Below are positions 6,073 to 25,170 of a DNA stretch of 25,170 nt, in pieces. Both the position numbers and the translations under genes were made by a program. This DNA is from a virus: positions 1-25,170 of the IMG/VR virus record IMGVR_UViG_3300044491_002454; one strand, 5' to 3'. Numbering within the stretch: the stretch's first letter is position 1; each line of letters starts with the position of its first letter. A model generated the notes under the pieces. The model saw only the letters and a program-made list of their open reading frames with translations, was not told the DNA's origin and searched no databases.

Positions 6073-9000
6073 ATGGTCGCGTACATCATTGAAACAGCAA
6101 GAAGTTTCCCCAACCCATTGAGTGGTGCAGGGTTTACTAAAAAATGGGAGCGACCAGCATCCAGTAAGTATGAAAATGGTGATTATAATCTAGGTACTGG
6201 CACAGACTATTACATTACGTTTGAGTCTGGTGGTCCTGGTAGTATGCCATTGGGCAAGGACGAAGTACATTATATTGGTGATCAAGATCCTGGTTGTGTA
6301 GAAGGTTGCGCTACCAAGGGACCTGTGTATCGTTTCTTGCGTGGTGAGAAGCGTGATCACAGATATTCCAATAACCCTAGTATCACTGATAGGGATATGG
6401 GGTGTGAGAATGAAAACTGGAAAGAAGTTGCAGATGGATACAACAAAGAGCCACGGAGTGGTGGACCTGTATTCCATACTCTGCATAACAGAGGTCCTCA
6501 AGACGATGATAATAACTATATCTCTGGTGCAGAGCCATTAAAGGTATGGTTTTCATATTGGCCTGATGACTGTATGCTCACCTTTGGTGATAATTCAGAT
6601 CCTAGTGACTATGGTGGTAATGTTGGTTGCGGTCAAGGTAAGTACTATGAATGCTATACCTTAGGATATGCCTTTGGTAGTTACAACGATGCCTTAGACT
6701 GGGCAGGATCAGAGCAGGCAGATAATATCTTTCCTCTTTATCACTATCGCTACGGTAGCATGAATGCTAGTAGTGGTATAGACATTGATAACTTCTATAC
6801 TATTAGACCAGAGGATGAAGTAAACCTAGAGACAGGTAACAGTGGTGGTGATGGACCTGCAGATTGTAAGGATCCTCGTGGTGAAGAATATGATTATCAG
6901 GGTATCTTGTGTTGGGTATTTGGATCAAATCCTGGTGACGCCCCTAGGCAGGTTATTAGAGACGTTGCTAAGATTGGTCCCACGGGTCAGTGTGTAGATA
7001 AGACTGCTTGGTATAACTATCAGACAGGTGATGGTTATGACTGTGTTTTCAGTTGGAGAGTTTATAACAGAGGTGGTAATCCTTGTTTCAACCAGGCACT
7101 ACGAAAATATGATATCTTTGGTGAGATGGATCCTGGAGCACCTAATGTTGCGTCATGGGGTCATGAGCCAGAAGGTGGCGTCAGTATTGCCAATGAGCAA
7201 GCAAACTTTGAATGGTTGTATGGACTGAATGCGTCTATCAAAGCAGCAGTGCCAAAATTCCTTGGATTTGAAGACTCTTATGATTCTCAATTCCTGTATT
7301 ATCTCTATGATACGAGTACTCCATTCAATGGACCAGTCTTTGGTATCCAATATCGACTGAATGACAAACCATGTTGCCCCAATACGACATGCACTACGGA
7401 TGATACATCGGGTGGTGGTGCTGGTGGGACCAGGCAATCACCATGTTGCAAAGCAAACTACCATAACTATTCGCATTTCTATCAAATTCGCGACGATTCT
7501 TGGGAAACTACGCGGACTAAGATCAAATTAACCAACAAATCTAGCAAAGGTATCAACGAATCCTTCTGGACATTCGATACTACGACCCCTAGAATCCTTT
7601 TCCGTTACCTAACACGGGACGGAGACTTCAATAGAGGGGAGAAAATTAACGGTTGGGATATCGTTAGTGTGTTTTACTTCGGTGATGAGCTCAAATGTGG
7701 CATGATGGAGCTCATGGGCGATGGAAGTGACTTCGATTATGAGGAAGAATTCGAGTCAGATGATGGTGCTCGGATGAAAGTACTCTCTGGACCAGGCATT
7801 GGCGACAAATGTGCCTTTGCTGGAGTGTATGAATTCCCCAAAAAGGTGTCATATTACAAAGTTGAGCTCTCTCCAAGAGCACTTGTCCCCAATCGCACAC
7901 TCGATGCAGCGATAATCAAGGCTTTGGTTGATGATGAAGGCGCAGTTTATGACGTTGAGATCATCAATAATGGTCGTGGATACCATGATGGTAGTGAAGT
8001 AAGAGCTCCAGACGGTAGTACATCACGTCCAAAGGCACAAATTAGTGTAGTTTGTCCCAGAGTGATGGAGGATTTCAGTGCAACTGATGTTACTGAGCAC
8101 CTAGAAGACCTCATTAAGGAGGATTCTTCTATAGAAGAGGCAATTGGATTCACAGAAACACTCAATACAGGTGATGATCCAGCGCGAGATGTGCAGATTG
8201 CAGCTGGTGCTATCAGTGGTGCTGTCGATTATCCCATCAATCATGATGAAACTAAGTTTAAGCTCCGCACTGCGAAGCTAGAGATCTCTAAATTTGATGC
8301 AAATGGTGGTATTGATGAGGTTAGAATCATCGATGGTGGTGCAGGATACTCCAGAAAGCAACCTCCACAGGTGTTTGTGAGTGATCCAGAGTTTATTGAA
8401 TACACTGGACCTGATAAAGGTGAGGAAGAATTGGTAAAAACCTCTCAAAATATCTCAGATGCATTCCAATATACCCAACCTACAGCGCAAGGGGCACGGT
8501 ATGGCACCTATCAACCACCCAAATTTGGGTCTGGTATCAATGCAACAGGTACTTTTACCACATCTGAGTTTGATACTGGCGGTAGAAACTTTGAAAATGC
8601 GTTTTCTGACGAGTCTGCTGCCAATGGTGCCGCAGGTTTTGCCAGTATGAATATGGCACAGATCGCAAAACTAGGTATTGACTCAATCAAAGAGCCCCAA
8701 AGAGCGTTTGCACCTGATAGTTACATCAGAATCGCGCAAGTTGATGAGAATAATGAGACAAAATTGTGCTTTGATCTCCCTCCAAACTGTTTAGAAGTGA
8801 CTGGAAGAGGAAATATCCTCGACGCATTGCCCAAAGAGGACTTTTTTAGCGAAATTTCCAAGATCAATGAGCCAATTCGGGACTATGAGGCGCAAATTAT
8901 GCCTGAATTGTACAAAGCAGCGGCTCAAGTTGACCAATATCAAGAAACAACGTCGCATGTTTACGGTGGATTCAACAAACAGAGGTGTATTTCGATGGGT

Positions 9001-10215
9001 CAACCCGATATTATCAGTATTGGGCGCTGGTTTGACATGCCTTGTGCTTATATGAGCACTACTGAGGCGGGATCTACGATTTTGGACGAGATTCAAGCGA
9101 GTAGAAAGCTCACAAAAGAGCGTGCTTTCGGATATTTGCCTTACAAGTACTGTGCATCTGATGTACAAGAGGCAGAATTCGTTGTTGGCATCCAAGTTGA
9201 GGGTAGAACTACAGGATCTATGGGTGACGACTTCATGGATTTCTTAAGTGCCTTTCAAAAACCCAAATTGACCCCTTCCAGAAAACTTCCTGGAGGCAAT
9301 TCTGGATATCGGACATGGGGATGCTCACGGGGTGGGTATAAAGGTCGCTGTTATCGTGATCCTAATGATGAAGATGACATCATTTATGTGCCAGTCGGGT
9401 TGGAAGAGAATACCTTTGACTATAACCGATCGGGTTATAGTGAAGGTGAGCAGTTTGGTCTTTGGTTATGTGATAATTTGACAAGTCACACCCCTGATGC
9501 TGGATCAACTACTTGGAGTTGGATTTACCAAACTACAGAAACTACAACTACTACAGACCCAGCGACTGGAGAATCCACAACTAGTACAACTACTACAGAT
9601 AATCCAGATTCAGGTGATAGTGGACCATGGACATCATTCCAAGTTGATTGTCCTAATAACAACGTGCCTGTCCATGACTGCTGGGACAAGTATGTACGTG
9701 CCTCAGGAGCGCCCTCAGACGCCCCTCTGGACGTTTATTGTGGGTGGGATGTAAATGGCAACCCAATCCCTGGTAAACGCTTCTGGGAGATCACAGGACC
9801 TGGACCAGCAGCAGGTGGTGGATTTGCTTTTGAGGGAGCACACCAAGCACCAACAGGAGTATATAATCCATTCTGCAACGATTGCGCTAATAATGCTTCT
9901 AATCCTATCTTTGGAGGATTCCTGAGTTTCCTCATTCAACCAAGCGTAAATATTCCTCCATGTGTTGGTCTCGAATATGTTAGTGATGCATCTATTGCAA
10001 TCGATCCCACTAGGATCGATGAGCCAAAAGGAGAAAACTATAAAGTTATGAATATAGGACCTATTAACGGTACTATGCGAGTTAGGAATTGGTTAACAGG
10101 ATCGATTCAGGCACTAAGTAATGCCATAGACAACTATGGCAACCCATACTTCACCGAATGTGATGTTGCTCGTCCTGATGAAACCAGGCAAACAAAAATC
10201 AATGAGGACTTGTAA
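6073..10215 (+). CDS. large virion structural protein (1380 aa)
   Basis: The first ATG after an in-frame stop (6070-6072) is at 6073; the product begins MVAYIIETARSFPNPLSGAG. The N-terminal 300 residues are rich in Gly, Tyr, Asp and Cys and contain segments like GPVYRFLRGEKRDHRYS (about 84-100) and FPLYHYRYGSMNASS (about 221-235). These resemble DUF5648-type repeats of surface proteins (inference). Around residues 630-650 and 745-780 are DVEIINNGRGYHDG and IIDGGAGYSRKQPPQVFV, the same GxGY repeat unit that fills the giant protein at 14484. A Thr-rich linker lies at about 1155-1180. There is no signal peptide or membrane segment. The many cysteine pairs (PCCPNTTC, SPCC) are unusual for a phage protein. 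It sits in the late block before the PAAR-like gene (stop/start overlap TAATG), so it is a tail or baseplate component; its exact position is unknown. Confidence 0.75.
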   Translation: MVAYIIETARSFPNPLSGAGFTKKWERPASSKYENGDYNLGTGTDYYITFESGGPGSMPLGKDEVHYIGDQDPGCVEGCATKGPVYRFLRGEKRDHRYSNNPSITDRDMGCENENWKEVADGYNKEPRSGGPVFHTLHNRGPQDDDNNYISGAEPLKVWFSYWPDDCMLTFGDNSDPSDYGGNVGCGQGKYYECYTLGYAFGSYNDALDWAGSEQADNIFPLYHYRYGSMNASSGIDIDNFYTIRPEDEVNLETGNSGGDGPADCKDPRGEEYDYQGILCWVFGSNPGDAPRQVIRDVAKIGPTGQCVDKTAWYNYQTGDGYDCVFSWRVYNRGGNPCFNQALRKYDIFGEMDPGAPNVASWGHEPEGGVSIANEQANFEWLYGLNASIKAAVPKFLGFEDSYDSQFLYYLYDTSTPFNGPVFGIQYRLNDKPCCPNTTCTTDDTSGGGAGGTRQSPCCKANYHNYSHFYQIRDDSWETTRTKIKLTNKSSKGINESFWTFDTTTPRILFRYLTRDGDFNRGEKINGWDIVSVFYFGDELKCGMMELMGDGSDFDYEEEFESDDGARMKVLSGPGIGDKCAFAGVYEFPKKVSYYKVELSPRALVPNRTLDAAIIKALVDDEGAVYDVEIINNGRGYHDGSEVRAPDGSTSRPKAQISVVCPRVMEDFSATDVTEHLEDLIKEDSSIEEAIGFTETLNTGDDPARDVQIAAGAISGAVDYPINHDETKFKLRTAKLEISKFDANGGIDEVRIIDGGAGYSRKQPPQVFVSDPEFIEYTGPDKGEEELVKTSQNISDAFQYTQPTAQGARYGTYQPPKFGSGINATGTFTTSEFDTGGRNFENAFSDESAANGAAGFASMNMAQIAKLGIDSIKEPQRAFAPDSYIRIAQVDENNETKLCFDLPPNCLEVTGRGNILDALPKEDFFSEISKINEPIRDYEAQIMPELYKAAAQVDQYQETTSHVYGGFNKQRCISMGQPDIISIGRWFDMPCAYMSTTEAGSTILDEIQASRKLTKERAFGYLPYKYCASDVQEAEFVVGIQVEGRTTGSMGDDFMDFLSAFQKPKLTPSRKLPGGNSGYRTWGCSRGGYKGRCYRDPNDEDDIIYVPVGLEENTFDYNRSGYSEGEQFGLWLCDNLTSHTPDAGSTTWSWIYQTTETTTTTDPATGESTTSTTTTDNPDSGDSGPWTSFQVDCPNNNVPVHDCWDKYVRASGAPSDAPLDVYCGWDVNGNPIPGKRFWEITGPGPAAGGGFAFEGAHQAPTGVYNPFCNDCANNASNPIFGGFLSFLIQPSVNIPPCVGLEYVSDASIAIDPTRIDEPKGENYKVMNIGPINGTMRVRNWLTGSIQALSNAIDNYGNPYFTECDVARPDETRQTKINEDL
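9529..9605 (+). repeat. Thr-rich linker in the 1380-aa protein
   Basis: The coding sequence runs through repeated ACT/ACA codons, encoding TTETTTTTDPATGESTTS and more Thr. It looks like a flexible linker between the body and the C-terminal domain, and the low-complexity DNA could vary in length by slippage. Confidence 0.6.
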
Positions 10216-10748
10216 TGGCATACGGATTTCTAAGACCAGTAGCACAATTGAATGGTATGCCTTGCTCTGGACATGGACTTTGTTTGCCTGCTACAATCCA
10301 TTCCGAGCAGAAATGTAAAACACCACCAATCCCATATTCGATTTACATCAAAAACTTTACATGTTGGTGGCCACCTACTTCATTGATCCCCCTTCAGGCA
10401 GTTAATGTCAAAAGAGCGACAGTGCTTGTGAATGGTACACCGATTATGATTCATGGTGATGCATTTTCACCACATATTTCAGCATGTACAAATATCATTA
10501 CTTATATGTGCCCATGTGGTAACAGCGTGTGTCCAGTACCAACACCTATCGAGTGTAGTCGGTTGACAAAAGAAGATCAAGGTGGGAAGGGGCATGAAAG
10601 AGTTGTACAAGCATCAACACTTACAACATATGCATTCAAAGTCCCTGTTGCTCGTATCTTGGATCCTCTTGGAGTGGGTTTCCCTGGATTTTCATATCCA
10701 TGCTCCTCAGTGGTTGCATATGGGTCCCCAACTGTGCTAGCATCCTAA
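10215..10748 (+). CDS. PAAR-like, Cys/His-rich virion protein (177 aa)
   Basis: The start ATG shares a base with the upstream stop (TAATG), with AGGA at 10204-10207 as ribosome site. The product begins MAYGFLRPVAQLNGMPCSGH. It contains RATVLVNGTPIMIHGDAFSP followed by HISAC, and ends SSVVAYGSPTVLAS. These 'V.VNG.P....GD' and 'V..GSPTV' units resemble the strands of PAAR proteins, which cap tail or T6SS spikes with a three-His, one-Cys zinc site. T4 has a PAAR protein, gp5.4, on its spike. The protein is longer than a single PAAR domain and carries about a dozen cysteines, so extra metal sites or disulfides are possible. Assignment is by pattern only; the position among tail genes supports it. 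Confidence 0.5.
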   Translation: MAYGFLRPVAQLNGMPCSGHGLCLPATIHSEQKCKTPPIPYSIYIKNFTCWWPPTSLIPLQAVNVKRATVLVNGTPIMIHGDAFSPHISACTNIITYMCPCGNSVCPVPTPIECSRLTKEDQGGKGHERVVQASTLTTYAFKVPVARILDPLGVGFPGFSYPCSSVVAYGSPTVLAS

Positions 10749-11753: not shown

Positions 11754-12164
11754 ATGGCATACAGATTTAGATCTGAAAAATACGTTAGTAGAGAGTTTAG
11801 GGACCTTGCGATCTCTTTCGCGTCAAACCCCTTTACTAAAGATTTTGGTGCTGTTAAGAATGAAAATGCAATCAAACAGTCTGTAAGGAATTTAGTACTT
11901 ACAATGTTTGAGGAAAGACCTTTCCAACCTGACGTGGGGTCTGGCGTGAGAAAACTTTTGTTTGAAAATTGGGATCCTTTCACCCAAGATGCAATTAAGA
12001 ATGAAATTGAGAATACTCTAGAAAGACTAGAAACTCGTATTGAAATTGAGAATATTGATTTGATTGATAATTCGGATTTGAATGAAATTCAAATCTCTTT
12101 GGAATATAAAATCGTCGGTCAAGCAATTACGCAAGAAGTTGAGTTCCTTCTAGAGAAGACTTAA
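11754..12164 (+). CDS. 25: baseplate wedge protein gp25
   Basis: This 136-residue protein matches the GPW/gp25 family in length and pattern. It begins MAYRFRSEKYVSREFRDLAI and has the conserved core ERPFQPDVGSGVRKLLFE (about residues 54-71). A helix (AIKNEIENTLERLETRI) follows, and it ends in strands (LNEIQISLEYKIV). In T4, gp25 binds the gp6/gp53 wedge core and links the baseplate to the sheath as the first layer of sheath initiation. AAAGG at 11741-11745 serves as ribosome site. gp6 starts two bases after its stop, so translation is coupled. The assignment is confident. Confidence 0.93.
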   Translation: MAYRFRSEKYVSREFRDLAISFASNPFTKDFGAVKNENAIKQSVRNLVLTMFEERPFQPDVGSGVRKLLFENWDPFTQDAIKNEIENTLERLETRIEIENIDLIDNSDLNEIQISLEYKIVGQAITQEVEFLLEKT

Positions 12165-12165
12165 A

Positions 12166-14472
12166 ATGCCAGCAATTCCTTCACAATTAACATCTCTAGA
12201 TTTCTTTGAAATCAAGGAATCTATTAGATCCTATCTCAGGACTCGTAAAGAATTTTCAGATTACGATTTTGAAGGATCTGCTGCATCTTATTTGCTAGAC
12301 ATTCTAGCATACAATACGTACTATACGGCATTTAACGCTAACATGGCGTTGAATGAAGCATTTCTAGAGACTGCAACAGTCAGAGACAATATTGTCCGTA
12401 TTGCAAAGCAATTAAATTACACACCTCGCTCAGTTAAGTCAGCGAAGGCATGTGTGACACTTGATGTGACTGTACCTATTTCATTGAATGGTGTCAACTA
12501 TCCTGAATATGCAACTCTAAAAAAAGGGGATGTATTTGTAGCATCGACATTTGCTGATTCATTTACCTTTGCAGTGACTAGAGATGTGCAGGTCCCTGTA
12601 GACTCCTCTACTGGCATTGCAACCTTTGATAACCTTGTGATGTATCAGGGCAACCTGCTTACCTATGAATATACCGTTGACTATACGAAAAAGCAGGACT
12701 TCATCATTCCAGATGAGAATGTAGACACTGATTTGATCTATGTTGACATTTCACCAAACCAACAGTCTGAAGAAATTGATACATATACCATTGCCAAGAA
12801 TGTAACCGCCTTGGATGGTACATCTCGTATCTATTATCTGGAAGAAACTGATGATTTGAGATATAGAGTCATTTTTGGTGATGGTGTCATCGGACGTAAG
12901 TTGATCGACGGTGAATTTATTCGTATTTCTTACGTTTCCACTGTTGGTGAGGAAGCTAACGGTGCTAGCGACTTTGCATTTGTTGGAAGAGTCATTGATA
13001 GTGACGGACGCAACATTCCACCTAATAGAATTAAAGTTACCACGATGGAATCTGCCCAACAGGGCGAAAGTAGAGAAGATGCTCTCTCTATTAAGTATCG
13101 GGCACCTAGAGCATTCGCTACACAAAACCGTGCTGTCACTGAAGCTGACTATGAGCACATTGTGTCAGAAATCTTCCCTCAGGCAGCATCAGTTACTGCA
13201 TATGGTGGAGAGAAGTTGTCTCCTCCTGTATATGGAAAGGTTTTTATTGCAGTACGTCCTAAGACGGGCAATAAGTTGAATGCAACTACTAAAAAAGCAA
13301 TTCAACAGGATCTGGCACCTTATGTTGTGGCATCAGTGCAACCTGAAGTCATTGATCCCACCATTTACAATATTATTCCTAAAACCTATGCATATTATGA
13401 TGGAAATTCGACTCCTAAGTCTGGTGCTCAGTTAGGATCGGATATTCTTAAGTCTGTCGATCAATATAATAAGGCAAATCAAAATAATCGCTTTGGTGGT
13501 CGTTTTGATACATCCAAATATGGATCTATGGTAGACAATACCGATGCATCTATTGCAGGTAGTGTTACTCAGGTCACTATTGGTCAAAATGTAGACGAAT
13601 TTGCATTTGGACAAGTCTTTACTCAGTGTATTGACTTTGGCAACCCTTTACATGATCCTGGTAAGTACTCAGGCACTACTCCTGTCGGTGGCGGTAATGA
13701 TGGTCGTTGCACAGAAGATAGAAATTGCCCTCCTGGACAAGTTTGTGTCAATGGTGTTTGTAAGACCCCTTGTGGAGACAGCAGCAGTTGTCCTGAAGGT
13801 TATGAGTGTGTTAATGGGTATTGCGAGCCTAGTGGTGGCACTGGTGATGATGACGGCACTGGTGGTGGTCCTGGCGGCGGAGGTGGCAGTTGTAAGCCTT
13901 CCTTCTCAGTGGTCAAATCTGGCACATTCTACGCTGATGGATACACTGACAATCTGGTAGATCTTGCATTGGCGACAGGTGGCAATACTGGTGCAACTAA
14001 TGCAACTTCAGGTGTCCAAAGTCCTTTGCTGGCAGCAAACGCAACTGCACTCGCAGCAGTAACTGCTAACGTCCCCGTAAAAATCAGAGACGACGGGCAA
14101 GGCAATCTGATGCTAGTTACTGAGAGAGATGAAAGCGAAGTTATCTTGAATGAAAATGTTGGTAGTGTTGATTACAGCACTGGTGAAGTTTGTGTTGGTC
14201 CTATCAATATTGTAGGCACTCCAGACGACTCTACAAGAGTCCCCATCCAGGTGCTCCCCTATCCTGGATCTCTTATTATTCCTCCTGGTGTTGATCCTAC
14301 AATCTTTAATCCTTCGGTCAATACAATCGATATTAACCGAGACCAAATCTCAATCCCCAACTTCGATCCCAACAACTTCGGTGGGTATAATTATGGTAAT
14401 ACAACGGGGATAAATATCATTGACTACCCCGATGATCCCTTCGATTATCCTGTTTCCACGTCCTGTTTCTGA
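12166..14472 (+). CDS. 6: baseplate wedge protein gp6 with cysteine-rich insert
   Basis: The product begins MPAIPSQLTSLDFFEIKESI and has the gp6/baseplate J-like N-terminal domain (FEGSAASYLLDILAYNTYY, about 36-54) and core (YRVIFGDGVIGRKLIDGEF; TEADYEHIVSEIFPQAA). gp6 forms the inner ring of the wedge with gp25 and gp53. At 768 residues it is about 100 longer than T4 gp6. The extra length includes residues about 515-576: two copies of a six-cysteine-like unit 'C....CP.G..C.NG.C' (DRNCPPGQVCVNGVC and SSSCPEGYECVNGYC), then a Gly/Asp linker (GTGDDDGTGGGPGGGGG) and another Cys. The C-terminus (PYPGSLIIPPGVDPTIFNPS onward) is Pro/Asn-rich and ends STSCF. The gene is directly coupled to gp25, and the giant gene starts 11 bases after it. 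Confidence 0.9.
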   Translation: MPAIPSQLTSLDFFEIKESIRSYLRTRKEFSDYDFEGSAASYLLDILAYNTYYTAFNANMALNEAFLETATVRDNIVRIAKQLNYTPRSVKSAKACVTLDVTVPISLNGVNYPEYATLKKGDVFVASTFADSFTFAVTRDVQVPVDSSTGIATFDNLVMYQGNLLTYEYTVDYTKKQDFIIPDENVDTDLIYVDISPNQQSEEIDTYTIAKNVTALDGTSRIYYLEETDDLRYRVIFGDGVIGRKLIDGEFIRISYVSTVGEEANGASDFAFVGRVIDSDGRNIPPNRIKVTTMESAQQGESREDALSIKYRAPRAFATQNRAVTEADYEHIVSEIFPQAASVTAYGGEKLSPPVYGKVFIAVRPKTGNKLNATTKKAIQQDLAPYVVASVQPEVIDPTIYNIIPKTYAYYDGNSTPKSGAQLGSDILKSVDQYNKANQNNRFGGRFDTSKYGSMVDNTDASIAGSVTQVTIGQNVDEFAFGQVFTQCIDFGNPLHDPGKYSGTTPVGGGNDGRCTEDRNCPPGQVCVNGVCKTPCGDSSSCPEGYECVNGYCEPSGGTGDDDGTGGGPGGGGGSCKPSFSVVKSGTFYADGYTDNLVDLALATGGNTGATNATSGVQSPLLAANATALAAVTANVPVKIRDDGQGNLMLVTERDESEVILNENVGSVDYSTGEVCVGPINIVGTPDDSTRVPIQVLPYPGSLIIPPGVDPTIFNPSVNTIDINRDQISIPNFDPNNFGGYNYGNTTGINIIDYPDDPFDYPVSTSCF
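14409..14416 (+). promoter_or_regulatory. late promoter motif GATAAATA inside gp6
   Basis: GATAAATA matches NATAAATA and lies 67 bases before the ATG of the giant gene, within the last codons of gp6. It could add late transcripts for the giant gene. Chance occurrence inside coding sequence cannot be excluded. Confidence 0.4.
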
Positions 14473-14483: not shown

Positions 14484-17400
14484 ATGTACAAAAAGAATAT
14501 TGCCGTATCAGATAGAGTTGAGAATCAGCTTCCTGAGTTTATTAGGATGGAAGATCGTCAATTCGTTGACTTTCTTTTTGAGTACTACAAATCTCAAGAA
14601 AAAACTGGTCGTCCTTTTGACATTCTAAACAATCTTCTCAATTATCTTGACTTAGATAATTATGAATCGATCGAGCTTTCAAGTGAAACTAACCTGCTTG
14701 AAAATGTCGGCATCTATGACAATACAATTCGTGTAGAAGACATTGATGGTTTCCAGCCTACTGATGGCACCATCATGATTGATAATGAAATCATGTACTA
14801 CGAGATGGTTACTCGTGGTCCTGATGCTATTATCACTCCTGGTATTTCTACAAGTCAGTTTGACAAAAAGAAACAGCAACTAGAGAATCCATTCCAATTA
14901 TTTGATGGGACAAGACTTACTTTCCCACTGAGTTTCCTAGGCACTCCTGTAGCACCTCCTTCAGTATTTCACCTCATTGTAACAGTATACAATGAAACCC
15001 TAGTCCCCAATGTAGATTATTTCCTAGAGGGGGATCAGATTCGCTTTGATACTCCACCCAGAGAACGTACAGGGGCAGATGACTCTGCTTTCACTGAGAT
15101 TGAATATCTAATCGGTTATGCAGATCAAGGCATCCTTACTATGGATGCTGTGCCTTTTGAGCAGTTTCAGGGTAAGAAACATTATCCTCTGAAGCAAGGC
15201 ACTATTTCATACAACCCAACATCAGAGATTGGTCTGATCGTTAATAAGAATGGCAGGATCCTCCGACCATATGAGGAGTATACTGTATTCCAAGATCAAA
15301 TTGTTTTTAACTTCCCTCTGGGTGCTGCTGATCAAATCAACGTTAGATCTGTTGAGTACATTGCTCCTCAATTTGGATCTGGTGCTGGTGGTGTTGTATC
15401 TGTAGATGATCAAGGACGTGTTGATCGCATCATCCCCAAAACTGGTGGTAATGGATATCGTCTTGATTTCTCCCCTAGAGTTACTATTGGTAGTACTCGT
15501 GGTAGCGGTGCAACTGCTAGGACACTGGTAAGTGGTATTAAGAATATTCAACTTATTGATGGTGGTCAAGGTTACACCTCCTACAACCCACCAATTCCTC
15601 AAGTTGCTGGTCCTTCCGATTCTAATGGCACCCAAGCAAGTCTGTCTCTAACTGTTAGTGATGAGACGGGACAGATTGATAGTATTACTATTGAAGACTC
15701 TGGTAGTGGATATGACTTCATTCCTGCTATTACATTCCTGAATCCTGGTGGTGCTACTATCAGCGATCCCACTATTGATAGTGAAGGTCGTCTGAATGTT
15801 GATAGTATTGCTGTAACATCTCCTGGAAACAGATATACCAATCCACCCACAGTTTATATCGATCCTGCTGGTGATGATGGTATCAATGCTCAAGCAGTTG
15901 CTCGTATTGATCAGAATGGTCAGGTATATGAAATCCAAGTCACTAATCGTGGTAGAGGATATACAACCCCACCTAGAGCAAGAATTATCGACCCCATTGG
16001 TGCTCAAGTACTTGATGTAACTGTTGCATCTGGTGCTGTCACTAACATTGAGATGTTGACAGGTGGTCAGGGTTATACTGATGCACCTTCTGTGTATATC
16101 GTTGACGATAGAAAGGATCCATATGGTGTTGCTATTGGCGGCACAGGTGCAACTGCAGTTGCAACTATCTTTAACGGCGAAATCACTGATATCAATATCA
16201 CCGACTTTGGTGAGGGATATTCTAGTGAGTTTCCTCCCAAAATTTTCATTGCTACACCAAAAGCAGCAAGATCTTCAGTAACTGTAGGATTTAACGAAGT
16301 TACTGGTTATAAAATTATTGAAGGTGGCGAAGGTTATGCACCTTCAGCATTCCTTGGTGTAAGTAGAGGTGTGTCTGGTGCTGTTGGATATGACACTCTG
16401 CATAACGAAATTTATGCAGGAGAGGGACAATTACAACAATCCAATCACTTTAGTGGTGCAAAGGTAGTTAACATTGACGCACTTTTCGTTAAAGAAGTAT
16501 TTGATAAGTTTAGAAGACAGTATCTACCTGGAATCAATTTAGATTACACTGCAATCAACCCTGTCCAGGTAATTAAAAATATTACCGATTTCTATACCTC
16601 TAAAGGTACAAAACTTGCCACACAGTATCTGTTTAAGATCATGTTTGGTGAGCAGGTGGATGTTTACTATCCCCGTGAAGAAATCATCTCACCATCGGCA
16701 GCTAATTGGGTTGTTGACACAATTCTGCGTGCAGAATTGATTTCTGGAGATCCTCTAGATCTTAAAGACTCCCAGTTGACTCAATATGCTGATGAAGTTG
16801 ACTTGTCAGTAAAACCTGCAAGTGCTCTGATTGAAAACGTCATTACAATTATCGAAGGTAGTGATACTATCTACGAATTGGCAATTTCTGAAGAAACTCT
16901 TGCTGGCAACTTTATTATTCCTTACAAGACGACTCTAGTTGAGCCTTTGACTACAACTGGTCAGATTATTACCGTTGACTCTACGATTGGATGGCCAGAA
17001 AGAAACGGCACCATCATAATCAATGATGAGGAGCAAGTACAATATAAGGAGAAGTCACTTAACCAGTTTATTGAATGCACCAGGTCTAAGAATGGTTTTG
17101 TAGAAGACTGGGATCCTGGCACAAGAATTTTCTCAGACATTTTCGTTTATGCGAATAGAGGTCTGCCAAACGAATGTAAACTCAGAGTCCTTGGTATTGC
17201 TGAAGCAGGCACCACTGTCCTTGATGACACTGGGTCTTACTATCTGCAAGGTGACAAACTAAAAGTTGCTAAACTGGGATCTACTGCCGAAGATGAAAGA
17301 CTGACTTCTTGGTTGTACAATGTTAAAAAACTGATCCAAGTCAATAGTGTTACTCCTGGTGGTGTTAACAACCAGACTGCAACTGTTGTTTGCGATAACC

Positions 17401-20400
17401 CTCATGGTCTATTGGTATCCGATCAGGTGACAATTTATGGTGCAAACCCCGTTGTTTATAACGGCACCTTTACTGTCACATCTCGTATTGACGAATTACA
17501 ATTCTCATATCAGATCAATACCCCTACAGAAATTATCCCTGCTGGTAATATCCTGTTGTCGGTTGACCTGAATAGAGGCAAGTCGGACATCACATCTATC
17601 AATAAAGTTGTAAGTGAGTTTACTACAAACATTCAAAACTCCTTCTTTAACGATGATCACGTTTATGTTGCTGCTTCTGGTCTACCCAATTATAAGATTG
17701 GTCCTTTCACTGGCTCGGCGCTGATTCCTGGTAACCAGCGTAAACTACTTCGTTTCCCTAGACTCGTCCAAACGATTTCTGAGCGTCAAGATATCTCTGC
17801 AAACAGCTCGATTGGATCTTGGGTGAATGGTGTGTCTATTTGGGCATACAAGTCTAGAGAGTTTGTTAGATTTGGTCCTCTGACTGGTATTACTGTTACC
17901 AATAAAGGTCAAGACTATGATGCAGGTAGCAAGCCCACTCTTGAAATTACTGGTGGCGGTGGCACAGGTGCTGTCGGTGAAGTTGTTGTCAACGGCAGTT
18001 TGAGTGGATTTGAAGTTACTGCTGAAGGTAGCGGATATACCGAATCTCCTCTGGTCTCCATCGTTGGCGGTGGTGGTATTGGAGCAACTGCACAAGCTGT
18101 CGTAACTGGTGGTCGCGTCACCAGAATTCTGGTTGAGCAACCAGGCACAGGATATACTTCACAACCTAGCGTTTCTATTACTGGTGGTGGTGGCACAGGT
18201 GCTGAGGCAACTGCAAGTGTCCGTGGTCCTATTCAAAGCGTTTCACTGGTATCTAATGGCACTGGATATACTTCATTGCCCGCAGTTAGAGTCAACTCTG
18301 GCGAAGGTGCTCTGGCACAACCTATTGTGATCAATGGTCGTATTGTTTCTATTGCTATTATTAACTCTGGTAGGGGTTACACTACTGCACCAGAAGTTAT
18401 TATCAATGGTGATGGTTTCGGTGCAATTGCAAAGGCAACCATTGGCACTATCGGTGAAGATAAAGGTCGTGTACTTAGTATTACGATTACAAACAGAGGT
18501 ATTGGATATACTCAAGGTCAAACTACAGTCAGACTGCAATCTGTTGGTGAGTTTGCAACATTCTCCCCCGAAGTCTTTGAGTGGAATAAAAATCTCCAGT
18601 ATGACCTCCAAAATAAATTTGATTTTGCAAGAGGATACGTCTTTACTGGTCTGAATAACCAGTTTGGTGGTGAATATGCTCACGTTAGCGATCCTAAAGA
18701 GCTTCGTTATGTGGTTGGCGATAACGTCTTCCTAAATCCTGTTACACAGCAATTCCAAGAAGTTGCATCTAACTTTGAGCACTCTCCTATTTTGGGTTGG
18801 GCGTTTGATGGTAACCCCATTTATGGTCCCTATGGTTACATTGACCCAACTGACCAAAACAGTGGTATCAGAAGACTACGTACATCCTATAAGTTAAAGG
18901 ACAACGTTGTTTTTGATGCAGCAACTAATCCAAACCCTGCTCGTATTGATGGTCCCACAATTGATGACTATGCACCAGGTACATTTATTGATGACTATAC
19001 CTATGACTTCCAGTCTGGTGATTTAGATAACTACAATGGGCGTTTCTGTAAGACTCCAGATTTCCCTGACGGCACATATGCATACTTTATTACTATTGAT
19101 GCATCTGAAGCGGGTGTTGCAGAATTCCCATACATTATTGGACCTCAATTTAACTCTCTTCCTGACAATTGGAATTTTGCTCAGGGTGCAACTCAAGAGA
19201 ATATCCCATCTAACGTTGTAAGATTCAGGGATCCATACGTTAACGTCGATATTGATATTGACCGTCAACCCAACCAAGAGTCCGATGTCCTGACGACTGA
19301 GATCGAAGGATATCCCATTATCTTTGAAATCCAAGATAGTAATAATGATGGTCTGATTGATGCTAATGAGCAACAAGAGATCCTTGAGATGTCCGAAGAG
19401 GCAACTCTGCAGATCTATGACTACTTCCCTCAAGTTTCTAAGGAGTCTAGAGTTGATATCGAAGTTGAGACAACTACTCAGTTTGAAGATGCTCAGATTG
19501 ACGGTTTCGTTATTGAAAACCCAGGTAAGTCTTACCAGGTCAATGACATTGTATTCTTCGATGATGCTGATACTGGTGGTTTCGGTGCATCTGCACAGAT
19601 TGAGTCTGTTAAGGGTCAAAACATCCAATCTTACAGTAAAGAGATCATTGGTGATCGCCCTTATGGTGTGATTGTTACTGATGCAGTACATGACCTTCGT
19701 CAGCAAGACGAAATCATTGTCAACTCCACTCCTGTTGTCGATAACACCAACAAAAACTATAAAGTAAAAGTTGTCTCTGGTGTCGAAAGAGTTAATGTCA
19801 CTCAAGTTGGTATTGGTTATAACGAAGATATTCCTCCTACCTTTGAGTTGATTACTACTTCAGGACAAGATGGTCTTCTGGAGATTGTACTTGAAAATAC
19901 TGGTCAAGTTAATAAAGTTAATATCATTAACTCGGGTAATGCTTATGATCCTGAGAATCCTCCTCAAATTCGTGTTTCCCATCCTCAGCAATTTAAGAAG
20001 ACCCGTTATTGGTTGTCTGAATATGTTGAGGCGACTGGTACAGTTACTGTCTATGACATCAAATCTACTTCAGATCGCTATACCTATATTTGTGGAAGCA
20101 TCGAGGAAGTTGATGAAGATAGAATGGGATTCCTCGCCAAGTTTGATGACCTTGGACAACTGATTTGGGAAAGGACTCTTATTCCTACCAATCCTAATCA
20201 GAAGCGTGCCGAATTCCTTAGAATGGCTATTGATGAGTCATTAGAAAACGACCGAATTTATGTTACTGGCCAAACATTTGATCCTGACAACGCAGTCTAC
20301 AACCCAGATGTCTGGTTGGGACTTTACGAGTCTGGTTTCAATAATGCCAACTCCCCTGACGGCATTCTGCTCTGGCAGAAGTCTATTGCAGGTATCTCTG

Positions 20401-23400
20401 GTAGTACTAGAAGAGACTATGTAACTTCTATTGCACTGGATCAAGATAAGCGTATCTATCTCTGTGGTTATACCGATACCAACTCTCCAGATCCTCAAGA
20501 TATGTGGATTATCCAGTGTGGTATTGATGGAGACCTTGTAGAGAAGCGTAAGGTTGCATCTGAAGATGGATCTGAAAAAATGCAGCAGATCATGTGGATC
20601 TCTGATGACAGATTCTTCTTTGTTGGTGTCAACGAAGAGAATGATGACTGCATCTTTGGTGAATTTATCTATGATGGTGCAAATATTGAGATGGATTGGA
20701 TTCGTCAAATGCCTACTATTGGTGGACGAGTCGAAAATCCAAGATTTACCATGGATGAGTATGGTGCAATCATTCTAGTGTGGGATATCTTCAATTCGGC
20801 ACTTGCTAAGAATGATAAAGTACAAATCAACAAATTCCTCAGAGCATCTGCAAATACTGAGTGGGAATGGGCAAAAACTATTAGTGTTTCTGGCGACTTC
20901 CTGTCTATTAACCATGCAAACATCAGTGTAGACGTATTTGGCAACTATAATCTGGTAACTGATATCATCGAGAGTGAGAATCAAAGATATTCAGTTATTT
21001 CATATCTTAAGTATGATGGCACTCTTCTAAAGCAGACTAAAGTTGATGATCCTGGAAATATTGGTTTCCAGGCAGCAAATCATACAGTTGATAACTCTGG
21101 TGACTGCCATATCCTTGCCAATCGTCAACAGTGCGATCAAATCATCTCTCTACGCTTTGACAACTCGGCAAACTTGCAAGAAGATACAACTAAGCAAGAG
21201 TTGGGCACATATCAGTACTTTGATATCAATGAGACTCTGTATGACCCTACTGTTTATAAGTTTGGATCTGGATCTCTGAAGATTCAGGACGTTGCACCTA
21301 TCTCTATTACCGATTTAGGTCTTACTCCTACTTCTTGGAGTATTAGAGCATGGATGTCGATGAATACTACTGTATATGGCACTAATCATCAACCTACATT
21401 CTTTGATGTTGCTGATAGCACCAATACTAACAGTATCCGTATGGATATTGATGGTGATGCAACATCTCCTGACTATGAGAAGGTAAAAATCTACCTGAAT
21501 GGATCTCAGGTTGCATCTTCAACAACTACAACTAACTGGACTGCATTTGCTAGTGCAACATGGGTCCATGTGACATTCCAGAAGCGTCAAGAGTCCCTTG
21601 GTCTTTACAGATATGAAGTCTTCATCAATGGAAACGTCCAAGCACAATTCCAAAGCACGACGGACGTTGCATTAGATGATATTACCATTGGTGGTCCTCA
21701 AAGTACTCCTACTACTGCCAATTCTTTCCGTGGCAACATCGATGATATCGTTGTTGATGATATTGCACCTTATGAAAACTCTTATTCAATTCCAAGTGCA
21801 TATATCCCAGTAACCACTTCAAACTCTGACTCATTTATTGTTAAGTTTGACAGAGTGCATACTCAGAGAGCAGCATACACCTTTACTGGTCTCACCAAGA
21901 ATAATAATCTCACATTTACTGAGATTACAACTGATATCATTTGGAATACAGTAATTATTCCAGCAATGCAAGCGTGGGAAGAAGGTCCTGGTGGTCTGCA
22001 AATTCTGGACATGTCTCAGACACAGGCACAGTTGATTCCTGGCACTGTTGCCACAACATCTGCATATTTCCAGTATGCATCTAAGACTTCCACCATTCCA
22101 TCACCTCGTGGTCAACGAGTGCTTCTGGAAGCAGACGTGGTGCCCAAATTCTATCTCCGTGACGCACTTTATAATAAGGTTGATAACGTCCAAGAGATTG
22201 TATTCACTCAACCCGTCAAACTGACGAAGTACACTATTCTTCAGCAATTTAATGCTGTCGGCACTACAACTGCTTTTGGCACAATTGTCGAATGTCCTGC
22301 AGGGACTCTGTTGGATCCTGGTCTTGGCACAACTTATAAAGTTGGTAAGATCTTTGGCACATTCAACAGCACTGATAGATTCAGGACTACTGCTGGCGAT
22401 GTTAACCAGATTCTGGGAGAATACTTCCAAAGCGAAGAAGAAGAGAATCCTTGGGAAGCTTCTGTAGCATACAATGCTGGAGATCGCGTTTATAATAACA
22501 AGCGTATCTATGAAGCACAAGGTGCTGGTACATCTGGTGCAATTCCCCCCACACATAATGCAGGTGTGGTGAGTGATGGTGTTATCAACTGGTCGTTTAT
22601 TGACGATGCTGGTAAGTTTACCATTGATCTGACAGAGCATCCTTATCCAAGACCTCAATATATTGGTCTTGACATGCCTGAGCACACTCCTGGCATTCTA
22701 TATGCTGCTGGTCAGCGTGTATGGTGGAAACTTAACGTGTATGAAGTTGCAGTTGGTGGAGGTGGTGTTGCAGGTACAACACATCCAACTCATACCACTG
22801 GAGATGCATCTGACGGTCACGTTACCTGGACATTCATCGAGACTCGTGAGTCAATTAGTCTCTACTCTCGTTTGATGCCTTTCAATCTGGGCGATAACTA
22901 TCAAATTCAGATTCTTGAGACACATCCTGGATCTTCTTTCATTCCCAATGACGTTATCAGCGTTACTGGAGATTATATTAGCTTGGCAGAAGATGAAAAG
23001 TCTGTTGGGATCTCTGGTCTGGCATCGGTTAAGAAGATTCGTGTTACAGCACGTCTTGAAAAAGATATAATCAGATCTTCCCAGAGTAGGACTGATCTGG
23101 TGTATTGTACTTCCAATAGTCAGCACTTCTATAACGAAAATGATATTATCTTCACTGAAGGATTCCAAGGTGATCAATATAATGGATCATTCTTCGTTGA
23201 TAAGGTTATTGGGTCTAGAGAGTTTACATTTAAGATCAGATCGACAGCAGTCTCCGATCCTGCATTCTCACAGAATGCTATCAATAATGTAAACATCTAC
23301 GCTAAGCATCCTACTCTTCTGTTTACTAGAAATCACCAGTACAACTTCGATGTATCTGATGTTTCTAACTTTGGTTACTATTTGTCATTCTCTCAGGACA

Positions 23401-25170
23401 ATCAGTACAAATTGGAGTATTCCTTCAATAATATTGTTAGAGAAGGCACTCCTGGTATTGATGCTACAGGTAATGCAGCACCATTTGTCAAATTCCTGGT
23501 ATTGGGAGATGTCACTAACATCTCTTACTACTTCGACCCATCTAGAATTGGATCTAACTCTCCTGTAGGCGATTCTTCGTTTATTGACGTTATCTCTACT
23601 CCATATGCAGGTAGATTCAATATTTCTGAGATCGTAAGTGATACTGAATTCAAATTCCCACTTAATAGAGAACCTGAGCGTGCAAACGCTGAAATTGGAT
23701 CCGATGATCAAGGAAATGCATATTCCTTCTACTCTACGACTTCCACAAGAGCAGTTGGTCCTATTAACAGCATTCAGTTGGTTTCTCCTGGTGGATTCTA
23801 TAAGAAACTGCCTATCATCTCTGATATTGCATCCTTCCGTCAAATTGAGAAGATTCTCATCGTTGATGGTGGCACAGAATACGCTCCTGGCATCTATTAT
23901 GATGTGCCTATCGATGGAGACGGTGAAGGTGGTAAAGCAATCCTCACAGTACTCTTAGATGAAGAAACTGGGTCTGGTGCCCTTGGAGACGTATCAGTAA
24001 GTGATCCTGGTAAAGGATATACCTTTGCTAGCATTGATGTTGACGCTATTCCTGGTATTCTTGGACCAACACTTGCTGGATCTGGTGGTGCTGTCCAAGT
24101 CGTCATTCCTAGTGAAGGTAGTGGTGCATCAGTCTTCTTGACAGGTAGAAACATCGGTAAGATCAAGAGACTGAAGAATAATGAGTTTGGTTTCGGATAT
24201 TCACACGATTACACTCTGAAACCCGAAATTACTTTCCCAGTCAACCTCCAACTCTTCAATACTTCGATTCTTACTGAAATCAAGATTACTAATCCTGGTA
24301 GCGGTTATACTTCGACTCCTGCAGTTGTTATTGAAGGTGGTGGTGGATCTGGTGCTGATGCAGTTGCTGTTGTCAAAAACAACCGACTTAGTGAGATTCT
24401 GATTAAGAATCCTGGTGCTGGATACTCATCCGAGCCTACAGTCACCCTGAAGTCTGAGTTTAACTACGTTGTCAACCTTGACCTCAACTATCTGCAGTTT
24501 AACTTCCCTCACGGCATTACGACTGGTGCAGAGGTTACATTCCGAGCAGATAATGTAGGTACTACACTTGGCGAATTGCCTAAACCATCTAGTGCAGGTT
24601 TGACCTCTCTGGTTGGTGGTCAGGTCTATTATGCGATTGCAGGTAACCAAAACTCACTGGAATCTGACCAATTGCGTTTTGCACTGACTTTACAAGCAGC
24701 ACAAGCAGGTGATTACATCACATTCTTGACTCAAGGTAGTGGTCGTCAAGTACTTCTTACTGAAGTGTTTGGTGGTGCTGCTGAGGCAGTTGTTGCAACA
24801 TCTCGCTTCCTTGCTGGTGAAGAAGTCTTCCAAGGACCAAGTGTGGAGCAAGCAACTGCAACTGGTATCGTTTCTACAAATACTGGTTGGCAGATCGGTC
24901 CTAAGATTCTTAAGATCGTTGATTACGAAGGTGATTGGAAGCAAGGTGAGCAGGTTAGTGGAAGTATCTCTAAAGCGTCTGGTATTATCGATAACCTGAG
25001 TATTGCTCGTGGTGTGCTCAATATCGGATCTCTGACTAAGACTCCTGGTAAGTTTACCGATGACGTTGGTAAACCTTCCGAGATTGTCCAAAAACTGCAA
25101 GATTCCTACTTCTATCAGAATTACTCCTATGTGGTTAAGTCTGAAATTCCTATTACGGAATGGAAGACTC
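14484..25170 (+). CDS. giant virion structural protein, 3' end outside the window (at least 3562 aa)
   Basis: The ATG at 14484, 11 bases after the gp6 stop, begins MYKKNIAVSDRVENQLPEFI and stays open to the end of the window. Domains in order (residues): N-terminal helical region (1-60); 'GTIMIDNEIMYYE' module (about 80-130), repeated near 825-860; eight GxGY repeats (about 315-640); helical conserved region RQYLPGINLDY to EQVDVYYPREEI (about 680-735); 'HGLLVSDQVTIYG' module (about 975); six GxGY repeats (1140-1350); YHYH-like GWAFDGNPIYGPYGY (about 1438-1452); propeller-like region (1865-2237); LamG-like sandwich (2240-2433); two CBM-like repeats (2655-2790); more GxGY repeats (3100-3330). 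There is no signal peptide. It holds the place T4 gives to gp7, so it is likely a baseplate wedge or peripheral host-contact protein. Proteins of this kind are typical of cyanomyoviruses. The exact role is inference. Confidence 0.88.
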   Translation, partial: MYKKNIAVSDRVENQLPEFIRMEDRQFVDFLFEYYKSQEKTGRPFDILNNLLNYLDLDNYESIELSSETNLLENVGIYDNTIRVEDIDGFQPTDGTIMIDNEIMYYEMVTRGPDAIITPGISTSQFDKKKQQLENPFQLFDGTRLTFPLSFLGTPVAPPSVFHLIVTVYNETLVPNVDYFLEGDQIRFDTPPRERTGADDSAFTEIEYLIGYADQGILTMDAVPFEQFQGKKHYPLKQGTISYNPTSEIGLIVNKNGRILRPYEEYTVFQDQIVFNFPLGAADQINVRSVEYIAPQFGSGAGGVVSVDDQGRVDRIIPKTGGNGYRLDFSPRVTIGSTRGSGATARTLVSGIKNIQLIDGGQGYTSYNPPIPQVAGPSDSNGTQASLSLTVSDETGQIDSITIEDSGSGYDFIPAITFLNPGGATISDPTIDSEGRLNVDSIAVTSPGNRYTNPPTVYIDPAGDDGINAQAVARIDQNGQVYEIQVTNRGRGYTTPPRARIIDPIGAQVLDVTVASGAVTNIEMLTGGQGYTDAPSVYIVDDRKDPYGVAIGGTGATAVATIFNGEITDINITDFGEGYSSEFPPKIFIATPKAARSSVTVGFNEVTGYKIIEGGEGYAPSAFLGVSRGVSGAVGYDTLHNEIYAGEGQLQQSNHFSGAKVVNIDALFVKEVFDKFRRQYLPGINLDYTAINPVQVIKNITDFYTSKGTKLATQYLFKIMFGEQVDVYYPREEIISPSAANWVVDTILRAELISGDPLDLKDSQLTQYADEVDLSVKPASALIENVITIIEGSDTIYELAISEETLAGNFIIPYKTTLVEPLTTTGQIITVDSTIGWPERNGTIIINDEEQVQYKEKSLNQFIECTRSKNGFVEDWDPGTRIFSDIFVYANRGLPNECKLRVLGIAEAGTTVLDDTGSYYLQGDKLKVAKLGSTAEDERLTSWLYNVKKLIQVNSVTPGGVNNQTATVVCDNPHGLLVSDQVTIYGANPVVYNGTFTVTSRIDELQFSYQINTPTEIIPAGNILLSVDLNRGKSDITSINKVVSEFTTNIQNSFFNDDHVYVAASGLPNYKIGPFTGSALIPGNQRKLLRFPRLVQTISERQDISANSSIGSWVNGVSIWAYKSREFVRFGPLTGITVTNKGQDYDAGSKPTLEITGGGGTGAVGEVVVNGSLSGFEVTAEGSGYTESPLVSIVGGGGIGATAQAVVTGGRVTRILVEQPGTGYTSQPSVSITGGGGTGAEATASVRGPIQSVSLVSNGTGYTSLPAVRVNSGEGALAQPIVINGRIVSIAIINSGRGYTTAPEVIINGDGFGAIAKATIGTIGEDKGRVLSITITNRGIGYTQGQTTVRLQSVGEFATFSPEVFEWNKNLQYDLQNKFDFARGYVFTGLNNQFGGEYAHVSDPKELRYVVGDNVFLNPVTQQFQEVASNFEHSPILGWAFDGNPIYGPYGYIDPTDQNSGIRRLRTSYKLKDNVVFDAATNPNPARIDGPTIDDYAPGTFIDDYTYDFQSGDLDNYNGRFCKTPDFPDGTYAYFITIDASEAGVAEFPYIIGPQFNSLPDNWNFAQGATQENIPSNVVRFRDPYVNVDIDIDRQPNQESDVLTTEIEGYPIIFEIQDSNNDGLIDANEQQEILEMSEEATLQIYDYFPQVSKESRVDIEVETTTQFEDAQIDGFVIENPGKSYQVNDIVFFDDADTGGFGASAQIESVKGQNIQSYSKEIIGDRPYGVIVTDAVHDLRQQDEIIVNSTPVVDNTNKNYKVKVVSGVERVNVTQVGIGYNEDIPPTFELITTSGQDGLLEIVLENTGQVNKVNIINSGNAYDPENPPQIRVSHPQQFKKTRYWLSEYVEATGTVTVYDIKSTSDRYTYICGSIEEVDEDRMGFLAKFDDLGQLIWERTLIPTNPNQKRAEFLRMAIDESLENDRIYVTGQTFDPDNAVYNPDVWLGLYESGFNNANSPDGILLWQKSIAGISGSTRRDYVTSIALDQDKRIYLCGYTDTNSPDPQDMWIIQCGIDGDLVEKRKVASEDGSEKMQQIMWISDDRFFFVGVNEENDDCIFGEFIYDGANIEMDWIRQMPTIGGRVENPRFTMDEYGAIILVWDIFNSALAKNDKVQINKFLRASANTEWEWAKTISVSGDFLSINHANISVDVFGNYNLVTDIIESENQRYSVISYLKYDGTLLKQTKVDDPGNIGFQAANHTVDNSGDCHILANRQQCDQIISLRFDNSANLQEDTTKQELGTYQYFDINETLYDPTVYKFGSGSLKIQDVAPISITDLGLTPTSWSIRAWMSMNTTVYGTNHQPTFFDVADSTNTNSIRMDIDGDATSPDYEKVKIYLNGSQVASSTTTTNWTAFASATWVHVTFQKRQESLGLYRYEVFINGNVQAQFQSTTDVALDDITIGGPQSTPTTANSFRGNIDDIVVDDIAPYENSYSIPSAYIPVTTSNSDSFIVKFDRVHTQRAAYTFTGLTKNNNLTFTEITTDIIWNTVIIPAMQAWEEGPGGLQILDMSQTQAQLIPGTVATTSAYFQYASKTSTIPSPRGQRVLLEADVVPKFYLRDALYNKVDNVQEIVFTQPVKLTKYTILQQFNAVGTTTAFGTIVECPAGTLLDPGLGTTYKVGKIFGTFNSTDRFRTTAGDVNQILGEYFQSEEEENPWEASVAYNAGDRVYNNKRIYEAQGAGTSGAIPPTHNAGVVSDGVINWSFIDDAGKFTIDLTEHPYPRPQYIGLDMPEHTPGILYAAGQRVWWKLNVYEVAVGGGGVAGTTHPTHTTGDASDGHVTWTFIETRESISLYSRLMPFNLGDNYQIQILETHPGSSFIPNDVISVTGDYISLAEDEKSVGISGLASVKKIRVTARLEKDIIRSSQSRTDLVYCTSNSQHFYNENDIIFTEGFQGDQYNGSFFVDKVIGSREFTFKIRSTAVSDPAFSQNAINNVNIYAKHPTLLFTRNHQYNFDVSDVSNFGYYLSFSQDNQYKLEYSFNNIVREGTPGIDATGNAAPFVKFLVLGDVTNISYYFDPSRIGSNSPVGDSSFIDVISTPYAGRFNISEIVSDTEFKFPLNREPERANAEIGSDDQGNAYSFYSTTSTRAVGPINSIQLVSPGGFYKKLPIISDIASFRQIEKILIVDGGTEYAPGIYYDVPIDGDGEGGKAILTVLLDEETGSGALGDVSVSDPGKGYTFASIDVDAIPGILGPTLAGSGGAVQVVIPSEGSGASVFLTGRNIGKIKRLKNNEFGFGYSHDYTLKPEITFPVNLQLFNTSILTEIKITNPGSGYTSTPAVVIEGGGGSGADAVAVVKNNRLSEILIKNPGAGYSSEPTVTLKSEFNYVVNLDLNYLQFNFPHGITTGAEVTFRADNVGTTLGELPKPSSAGLTSLVGGQVYYAIAGNQNSLESDQLRFALTLQAAQAGDYITFLTQGSGRQVLLTEVFGGAAEAVVATSRFLAGEEVFQGPSVEQATATGIVSTNTGWQIGPKILKIVDYEGDWKQGEQVSGSISKASGIIDNLSIARGVLNIGSLTKTPGKFTDDVGKPSEIVQKLQDSYFYQNYSYVVKSEIPITEWKT
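15430..16380 (+). repeat. GxGY repeat cluster 1 in the giant protein
   Basis: Eight units of about 30-45 codons each contain a Gly-rich turn and GY, for example GGQGYTSYNPP, SGSGYDFIPAITF, RGRGYTTPPRARI and GGQGYTDAPSVYIVD. The unit is a strand, 'GG.GY...P.V.I', then 'G.GA.A...V..G.I..I'. The regular strand/turn pattern suggests a beta-solenoid or stacked beta-hairpins. Confidence 0.7.
17890..18540 (+). repeat. GxGY repeat cluster 2 in the giant protein
   Basis: Six nearly tandem units of about 30-35 codons include EGSGYTESPLVSIVG, PGTGYTSQPSVSITG, NGTGYTSLPAVRVNS and SGRGYTTAPEVIING. GGGGTGA/GGGGIGA follows in the first three. The DNA keeps similarity too: GGTGGCACAGGTGCT occurs in two units (17958 and 18187 areas). 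This is the clearest recent duplication in the protein. Confidence 0.75.
18771..18900 (+). other. YHYH-like domain segment of the giant protein
   Basis: Residues about 1430-1472 include EHSPILGWAFDGNPIYGPYG and then RRLRTSYKL. The phrase 'GWA.DG.PIYGP.GY' is the hallmark of the YHYH family, found in secreted bacterial proteins and cyanophage structural proteins. Its function is unknown; copper or carbohydrate roles have been suggested for relatives but are not shown here. Confidence 0.6.
20077..21195 (+). other. beta-propeller-like region of the giant protein
   Basis: Residues about 1865-2237 repeat a blade-like pattern of 45-60 residues: YTYICGSIEE ... AKFDDLGQLIWERT; RIYVTGQTFD ... ILLWQKSI; RIYLCGYTDT ... 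GDLVEKRKV; RFFFVGVNEEN ... MDWIRQM; and GNYNLVTDIIE ... YDGTLLKQTKV. The order strand 'iyv.G', strand, 'G..lW.k.i' resembles SBBP-type propellers. Fold assignment is by pattern. Confidence 0.5.
21201..21783 (+). other. LamG-like (concanavalin-type) domain of the giant protein
   Basis: Residues about 2240-2433 show the LamG order: YKFGSGSLKIQ, PTSWSIRAWMSM, SATWVHVTFQKR, EVFINGNVQAQF, DDITIGGP and FRGNIDDIVVDD. The 'W.HV.f', '.ING.' and 'ITIGG...FRGNIDDI' elements are characteristic. Such sandwiches often bind glycans or proteins at cell surfaces, which fits a host-contact role (inference). Confidence 0.7.
22447..22850 (+). other. two CBM-like repeats of the giant protein
   Basis: Unit 1 (about residues 2655-2709) has SVAYNAGDRVYNNKRIYEAQ, then PPTHNAGVVSDGVINWSFID. 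Unit 2 (about 2737-2790) has LYAAGQRVWWKLNVYEVA, then HPTHTTGDASDGHVTWTFIE. The pattern 'Y..G..V.....Y....G..G..PTH..G..SDG...W.FI' resembles chitin-binding type 3 or phage carbohydrate-binding modules. Confidence 0.6.
23780..24460 (+). repeat. GxGY repeat cluster 3 in the giant protein
   Basis: More divergent copies lie here: GGTEYAPGIYYDVPI, PGKGYTFASIDVDAI, PGSGYTSTPAVVIEG and PGAGYSSEPTVTLKS, with GGGGSGADAVAVV in the best-kept unit. Three looser copies also occur at about 19500-19985. Together with clusters 1 and 2 I count about 23 copies in the part of the protein seen. Confidence 0.65.

Follow-up and report, generated by a model that had tools for sequence, protein, structure and literature searches.

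By its sequence, a giant gene in a virus record encodes the gp7 baseplate wedge subunit of a T4-like marine cyanophage, its conserved core cut into three segments (A, B and C) by very large insertions. The DNA analyzed, called the window here, is the whole 25,170-base stretch of that record; the gene's frame on the plus strand has zero internal stops and is still open where the window ends, much as a preliminary description had reported (one frame filling 10.7 kb, more than 3560 residues, leaving the window). The gene is a new member of a known and abundant family of cyanophages (Kyanoviridae), PHROG 701. What is new is the split-core anatomy, together with the correction that results from it to the published view that gp7 is absent from such phages. 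The fuller explanation, a gp7 wedge subunit with a split core and inserted arms that would touch cell-surface glycans, we consider probable.

A giant member of a cyanophage family

The PHROG 701 profile matches with 4,687.7 bits, aligning residues 6-3561 to positions 4-3476 of a profile 6136 long. The family is found in hundreds of cyanophage genomes, where its members are labeled hypothetical, "YadA domain", "head and packaging" or "wedge initiator"; the relatives of the window protein are annotated gp7 or "baseplate wedge initiator". Matching GenBank phage records number 484 for the first half of the window protein and 375 for the second. The orthologues in P-TIM40, P-RSM6, S-SZBM1 and S-WAM1 (7,351, 8,573, 6,619 and 6,737 residues, respectively) are collinear with it along its full 3,560 residues, with 59-63% identity, and orthologues showing the same order span 5,512-8,573 residues. 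Because the complete, near-collinear relatives are 6,619-8,573 residues long, only about half of the gene lies in the window, which by this comparison holds roughly the first half of a baseplate protein of ~7,000 residues.

The gene stands directly 3' of gp6 and after gp25 (phrog_219 with PF21379, and phrog_261), the three genes being adjacent in the order gp25, gp6, giant gene, so the "gp7 position" given to it earlier is correct. PHROG 701 is assigned to the category "head and packaging"; we reject such a role on the strength of gene position and of the gp7 core, which is present in the members of the family. Several neighbors have features of their own. The gp6 protein (768 aa, vs. about 700 aa in P-TIM40) contains an inserted region in which a Dickkopf_N-like motif rich in cysteine (PF04706, E = 8e-5) lies beside a glycine-rich stretch. 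Upstream, positions 6073-10215 encode a protein of 1,380 residues with GxGY-like motifs and many cysteines, for which Pfam gives zero matches and which occupies the place of P-TIM40 PTIM40_93, and positions 10215-10748 encode a PAAR-like protein (phrog_281).

A gp7 core in three segments

Core profiles were built from the giant proteins together with the small gp7 proteins of Moby (503 aa), phiM12 (1,007 aa) and Melnitz-2 (896 aa), leaving T4 out. Searched against T4 gp7 alongside decoys and 1,000 shuffles, the core B profile scores 30.3 bits at residues 732-758, compared with 9.3 for the best shuffle, and the core C profile scores 18.6 bits at residues 864-889, compared with 13.9 for the best shuffle. 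The core A profile gives no direct match to T4 gp7 (2.8 bits) and is linked to it via phiM12 only; residues 6-122 of phiM12 gp7 match T4 gp7 640-758 (E = 7e-6), a bridge between T4 and the giants. A survey of 1,890 ORFs from 20 loci yields exactly one core-bearing ORF per locus. All three segments are found in 17 phages plus the window, segments B and C in T4, and segment C only in P-RSM1, which is cut at the end of its record. (S-SSM7 has two genes labeled gp7, the core being present only in the first, SSSM7_101.)

Structure prediction adds little for the core, which AlphaFold models poorly (pLDDT 30-70). Foldseek comparison of this poorly predicted core model to T4-type gp7-sized chains returns probabilities of 0.12 or less, which are not meaningful, and the model of residues 1-1130 has zero trustworthy matches in the PDB, and only orthologues and diffuse matches among viral models.

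Cyano- and pelagimyophages have been said to lack gp7, its place being taken by VrlC (PMC7029224). Were cyanomyophages to have lost gp7 in this way, the giant would be an unrelated structural protein that happens to sit in the same place, as might be suggested by its tiny whole-protein similarity to T4 gp7 and by a Pfam search of the whole protein that reports five families, the T4 gp7 domain models not among them (Baseplate_wedge, PF23786, is a weak match). We regard this as extremely unlikely, since cores B and C do match T4 gp7, the core makes up much of the 503-residue Moby protein, and none of the VrlC-position ORFs among the 1,890 from the 20 loci contains the core. The core-bearing giant, identified from sequence comparison, contradicts the statement as it applies to cyanomyophages. 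Naming the protein gp7 with an insertion-split core corrects the notion that cyanomyophages lack gp7, and for structural work Table 1 marks the three short stretches to be modeled in wedge density.

Presence in the virion is known through orthologues of the window protein, from published mass spectrometry. S-SZBM1_208 (6,619 aa) was detected in purified virions by 71 peptides at 13.5% coverage (PMC9146016, Table 1), and T4-GC969, which is the S-SM1 orthologue SSM1_102, was detected in S-SM1 virions (PMC3037559). The protein had been called baseplate-associated, with absence from virions as a possible refutation; its core homology to gp7 and these two detections both favor the call.

Table 1. 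Features of the giant gp7 gene and the two genes before it
Feature	Position in window (residues)	Strand	Basis or remark
gp25, baseplate wedge subunit	11754..12164	+	phrog_261
gp6, predicted wedge partner	12166..14472	+	phrog_219, PF21379
Giant gp7 gene	14484..25169	+	3,562 codons, ATG start, 3' end past window
gp7 core segment A, helical	14496..14669 (5-62; core taken as 2-61)	+	profile matches phiM12 11-63 (E = 7.5e-6) and Melnitz-2
First "GTI.I..E...Y" module	14661..14888	+	profile of residues 60-135 finds 815-855
Beta-rich domain	14889..15338 (136-285)	+	diverged copies in slot 3 of relatives
GxGY block I, end of slot 1 insertion, beta repeats	15339..16463 (286-660)	+	motif count, profile comparison, AlphaFold
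gp7 core segment B, "DFYxSKGT" helices	16446..16784 (655-767)	+	PF23786; T4 gp7 732-758
Second "GTI.I..E...Y" module	16881..17198	+	profile comparison
GxGY block II	17874..18578	+	motif count, profile comparison, structure prediction
YHYH-family domain, YAYF subtype	18660..19103 (1393-1540)	+	PF14240, E = 1.5e-28
Predicted beta-propeller, about seven four-stranded blades	20040..21125 (1853-2214)	+	AlphaFold, Foldseek
LamG / concanavalin-like domain	21300..21755 (2273-2424)	+	PF13385, E = 2.3e-6
CBM-like repeat 1	22419..22619	+	CBM_5_12; PDB 7eea; self-match
CBM-like repeat 2	22635..22886	+	profile comparison with repeat 1
GxGY block III	23871..24473	+	motif count, profile comparison
gp7 core segment C, start	25041..25169 (3520 to window end)	+	core profile; "HP.GF" end just past window

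Domains carried by the insertions

The domains listed in the preliminary description are recovered. Its estimate of about 23 GxGY repeats agrees with 17 exact G.GY motifs (shuffled mean 1.4, maximum 8 in 1,000 shuffles) plus degenerate copies recognized by eye (GNRY, GQDY, GKSY, GNAY, GGFY, GTEY). The GxGY blocks are well conserved. Block I, which is absent from S-PM2, S-SSM7 and P-SSM2, is modeled with pLDDT about 90 over most of residues 300-620 (AlphaFold model of residues 1-1130, 77 sequences). Duplication of the "GTI.I..E...Y" module is supported by the profile of residues 60-135, whose match to the second copy has E = 2.3e-4 in the window protein and reaches 2.3e-7 in a relative.

The YHYH-like domain scores 100.5 bits to PF14240, against a curated cut-off of 25. 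This domain has been proposed as a metal-dependent hydrolase on the basis of conserved histidines and an aspartate (PMC7824862), and one histidine and several aspartates are indeed invariant in the copies compared here, as they might be if the domain cut the cell envelope. Such an enzymatic role is nonetheless very unlikely, as read from these sequences: both of the histidines that give the motif its name are replaced (YAYF) in the window, in nearly all phage copies compared and in nearly all of the nearest bacterial relatives. The proposed metal-hydrolase site is therefore incomplete. YHYH domains 85-86% identical to that of the window occur on three contigs (L102, L103, L104) filed under Flavobacteriales and a Euryarchaeota MAG; these are probably cyanophage contigs binned into MAGs. 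Diverged YHYH copies also occur in neighboring baseplate genes of relatives (L002 41044-42624, L003 35346-39677), and the P-SSM4 gene among these also has GxGY and CBM-like modules. Diverged copies in neighbor genes suggest module exchange within the operon.

The propeller-like region is confidently predicted as such, with about 26 strands and pLDDT about 85-92 over most of residues 1853-2214 (AlphaFold model of residues 1131-2300). Foldseek against the PDB assigns probability 1.00 to CylK, Sec12, Photorhabdus lectins and sialidases, and the TM-score to a 347-residue lectin is 0.66; by sequence, the SBBP propeller repeat is marginal only (E = 7.6e-4). The LamG-like sandwich is matched by PF13385 (Laminin_G_3) just above cut-off. 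The two CBM-like repeats match each other (E = 2e-11 and 3.7e-13), and CBM_5_12 matches residues 2657-2684 with E = 1.2e-3, below the family cut-off. The LamG and CBM5/12 stretches are putative carbohydrate-binding folds, assigned at the level of fold. To call the whole a catalogue of surface-binding folds is accurate for the propeller, LamG and CBM-like parts, which are typical of surface binding, and too broad for YHYH, which is no known binding fold.

Fixed and variable insertions

Counting everything outside the cores as insertion, the window protein has 593 residues in slot 1 and 2,752 in slot 2, the latter comprising a GxGY block, the YHYH domain, the predicted propeller, LamG and the two CBM-like repeats. 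Slot sizes were compared in 19 proteins. Slot 1 is 588-599 aa in all giants, and 0-111 aa in small gp7 proteins and in the group of S-PM2, S-CAM3, S-SSM7 and P-SSM2. Slot 2 measures 105 (T4), 241, 354, 770, 1,549-2,193 and, in the giants, 2,577-2,795 aa. Slot 3, which follows the core and lies past the window end, is the most variable part between phages, with 5-212 aa in the small gp7 proteins against 523-4,948 aa in those of cyanophages (2,084-4,948 in the giant relatives). Self-comparison of slot 3 arrays lists zero internal repeats with the settings used, and cross-comparisons between different phages give many repeated matches.

All 52 long environmental relatives are collinear with the window, though they were drawn from the best-matching 80 loci and so are biased towards it. 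YHYH and propeller are present in every one, LamG in 25, and CBM-like repeats as a pair in 14, singly in 10 and not at all in 28. LamG and CBM are together missing from slot 2 in 27 of the 52, and are therefore dispensable for a working gp7. The propeller-LamG-CBM stretch is the fastest-evolving part of the protein: residues 2101-2500 have 19-43% identity to relatives, with flanks at about 60-85%. Surface binding is still plausible for this reason, while unproven.

The insertions may instead be structural, building an extra baseplate layer or skirt in which lectin-like folds are simply stable building blocks. This we hold to be possible though doubtful, and the proposed effect, a strengthened wedge or a transmitted trigger, is doubtful to the same degree. 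The near-fixed lengths of slots 1 and 2 among the window protein and ten giant relatives, the constancy of YHYH and propeller, and the well-conserved GxGY blocks are all in its favor. Against it, the propeller-LamG-CBM stretch is the least conserved and the LamG-CBM pair comes and goes, a behavior that suits exposed binding parts better than packed structure.

Host range

The suggestion that this domain order may decide host range is weakened by the sequence comparisons. P-TIM40 and P-RSM6 were isolated on Prochlorococcus NATL2A, S-SZBM1 and S-WAM1 on Synechococcus, and all four share the same order, the kind of result that the preliminary description had offered as a refutation. Nor does the gp7 lineage track the host genus: on a tree of 16 gp7 proteins, host genus changes 5 times, against a mean of 5.0 for shuffled labels, i.e. 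it is randomly placed. That the choice of cyanobacterial host is set by domain content and order could be argued from the several binding-type folds in one virion protein, and from reports that host adaptation affects baseplate and fiber genes in general (PMC6224464); given the identical order in phages of both genera, the random placement of host genus and the collinearity of the environmental relatives, we judge it unlikely. Host adaptation has been attributed to other proteins, namely a YadA-domain protein and short tail fibers (PMC6224464, PMC9910659). The genus on which a phage was isolated describes its hosts only coarsely, since a cyanomyophage may be a generalist, and effects at the level of strains may still exist. 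The parts to which the comparisons point as candidates for a role in adsorption are residues 1853-2801 and the variable slot 3.

A proposed role in the baseplate

In the preferred reading, that of a wedge subunit with inserted arms, the three core segments would fold together with two gp6 chains into the wedge trifurcation unit, six gp7 copies per baseplate, by analogy to T4 and TssF2-TssG; (gp6)2-gp7 and (TssF)2-TssG wedge units have been described (PMC6300606). The literature searched yielded no baseplate structure for any marine T4-like cyanophage. The GxGY repeats would serve as rigid spacers, holding the YHYH, propeller, LamG and CBM-like domains away from the baseplate, where, to go by their folds, these domains may touch cell-surface glycans. 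If host range is affected at all, it would then be adjusted through changing sequences in the exposed domains and through slot 3 with its variable array, and not through the order of the domains.

Long tail fibers are not seen by TEM in S-SZBM1, and are reported missing from S-WAM1, P-RSM6 and P-TIM40 as well (PMC9146016). Among the isolates compared, a slot 2 with the LamG-CBM cassette occurs in these four, a correlation that concerns one clade. In these phages the arms may do part of the fibers' work. The bolder version, in which six 7,000-residue gp7 copies replace the long tail fibers of the P-TIM40-like clade, is tentative and we think it rather unlikely; if true, it would put receptor binding and the contraction-triggering wedge on one polypeptide.

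Comparison with known systems

The closest known counterparts are the giant gp7 proteins of cyanophages (PHROG 701), likewise placed after gp6: P-TIM40 PTIM40_99, S-SZBM1_208, and those of S-WAM1, P-RSM6, P-SSM4 (gp7) and S-SM1 (SSM1_102) show full-length collinear homology with 43-63% identity over the window part. They differ from the window protein only by sequence divergence and by the LamG-CBM cassette, which at its place in slot 2 is common to the window and the P-TIM40 clade, the other isolates being without it. A cyanophage tailspike receptor-binding domain (PDB 7eea) resembles CBM-like repeat 1 over ~65 residues (E = 1.7e-7); it belongs to a different tail protein, and the CBM-like module alone is in common.

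More distant is the wedge family of T4 gp7 (1,032 aa), TssG and P2 gpI, also encoded one gene after gp6, which shares core segments B and C, including the KGT helices of core B. Cores A, B and C occur in order in the minimal gp7 of the Stenotrophomonas phage Moby (slot 2 of 241 aa, slot 3 of 57 aa), in that of the Sinorhizobium phage phiM12 (770 and 5 aa) and in that of the Methylophilales phage Melnitz-2 (354 and 212 aa). In T4 gp7 the additional domains (648 aa) precede the core and slot 2 holds a mere 105 residues, whereas the window protein has its extras inside and after the core. Compared in this way, the sequences describe one conserved gp7 core that has grown at points that differ from lineage to lineage.
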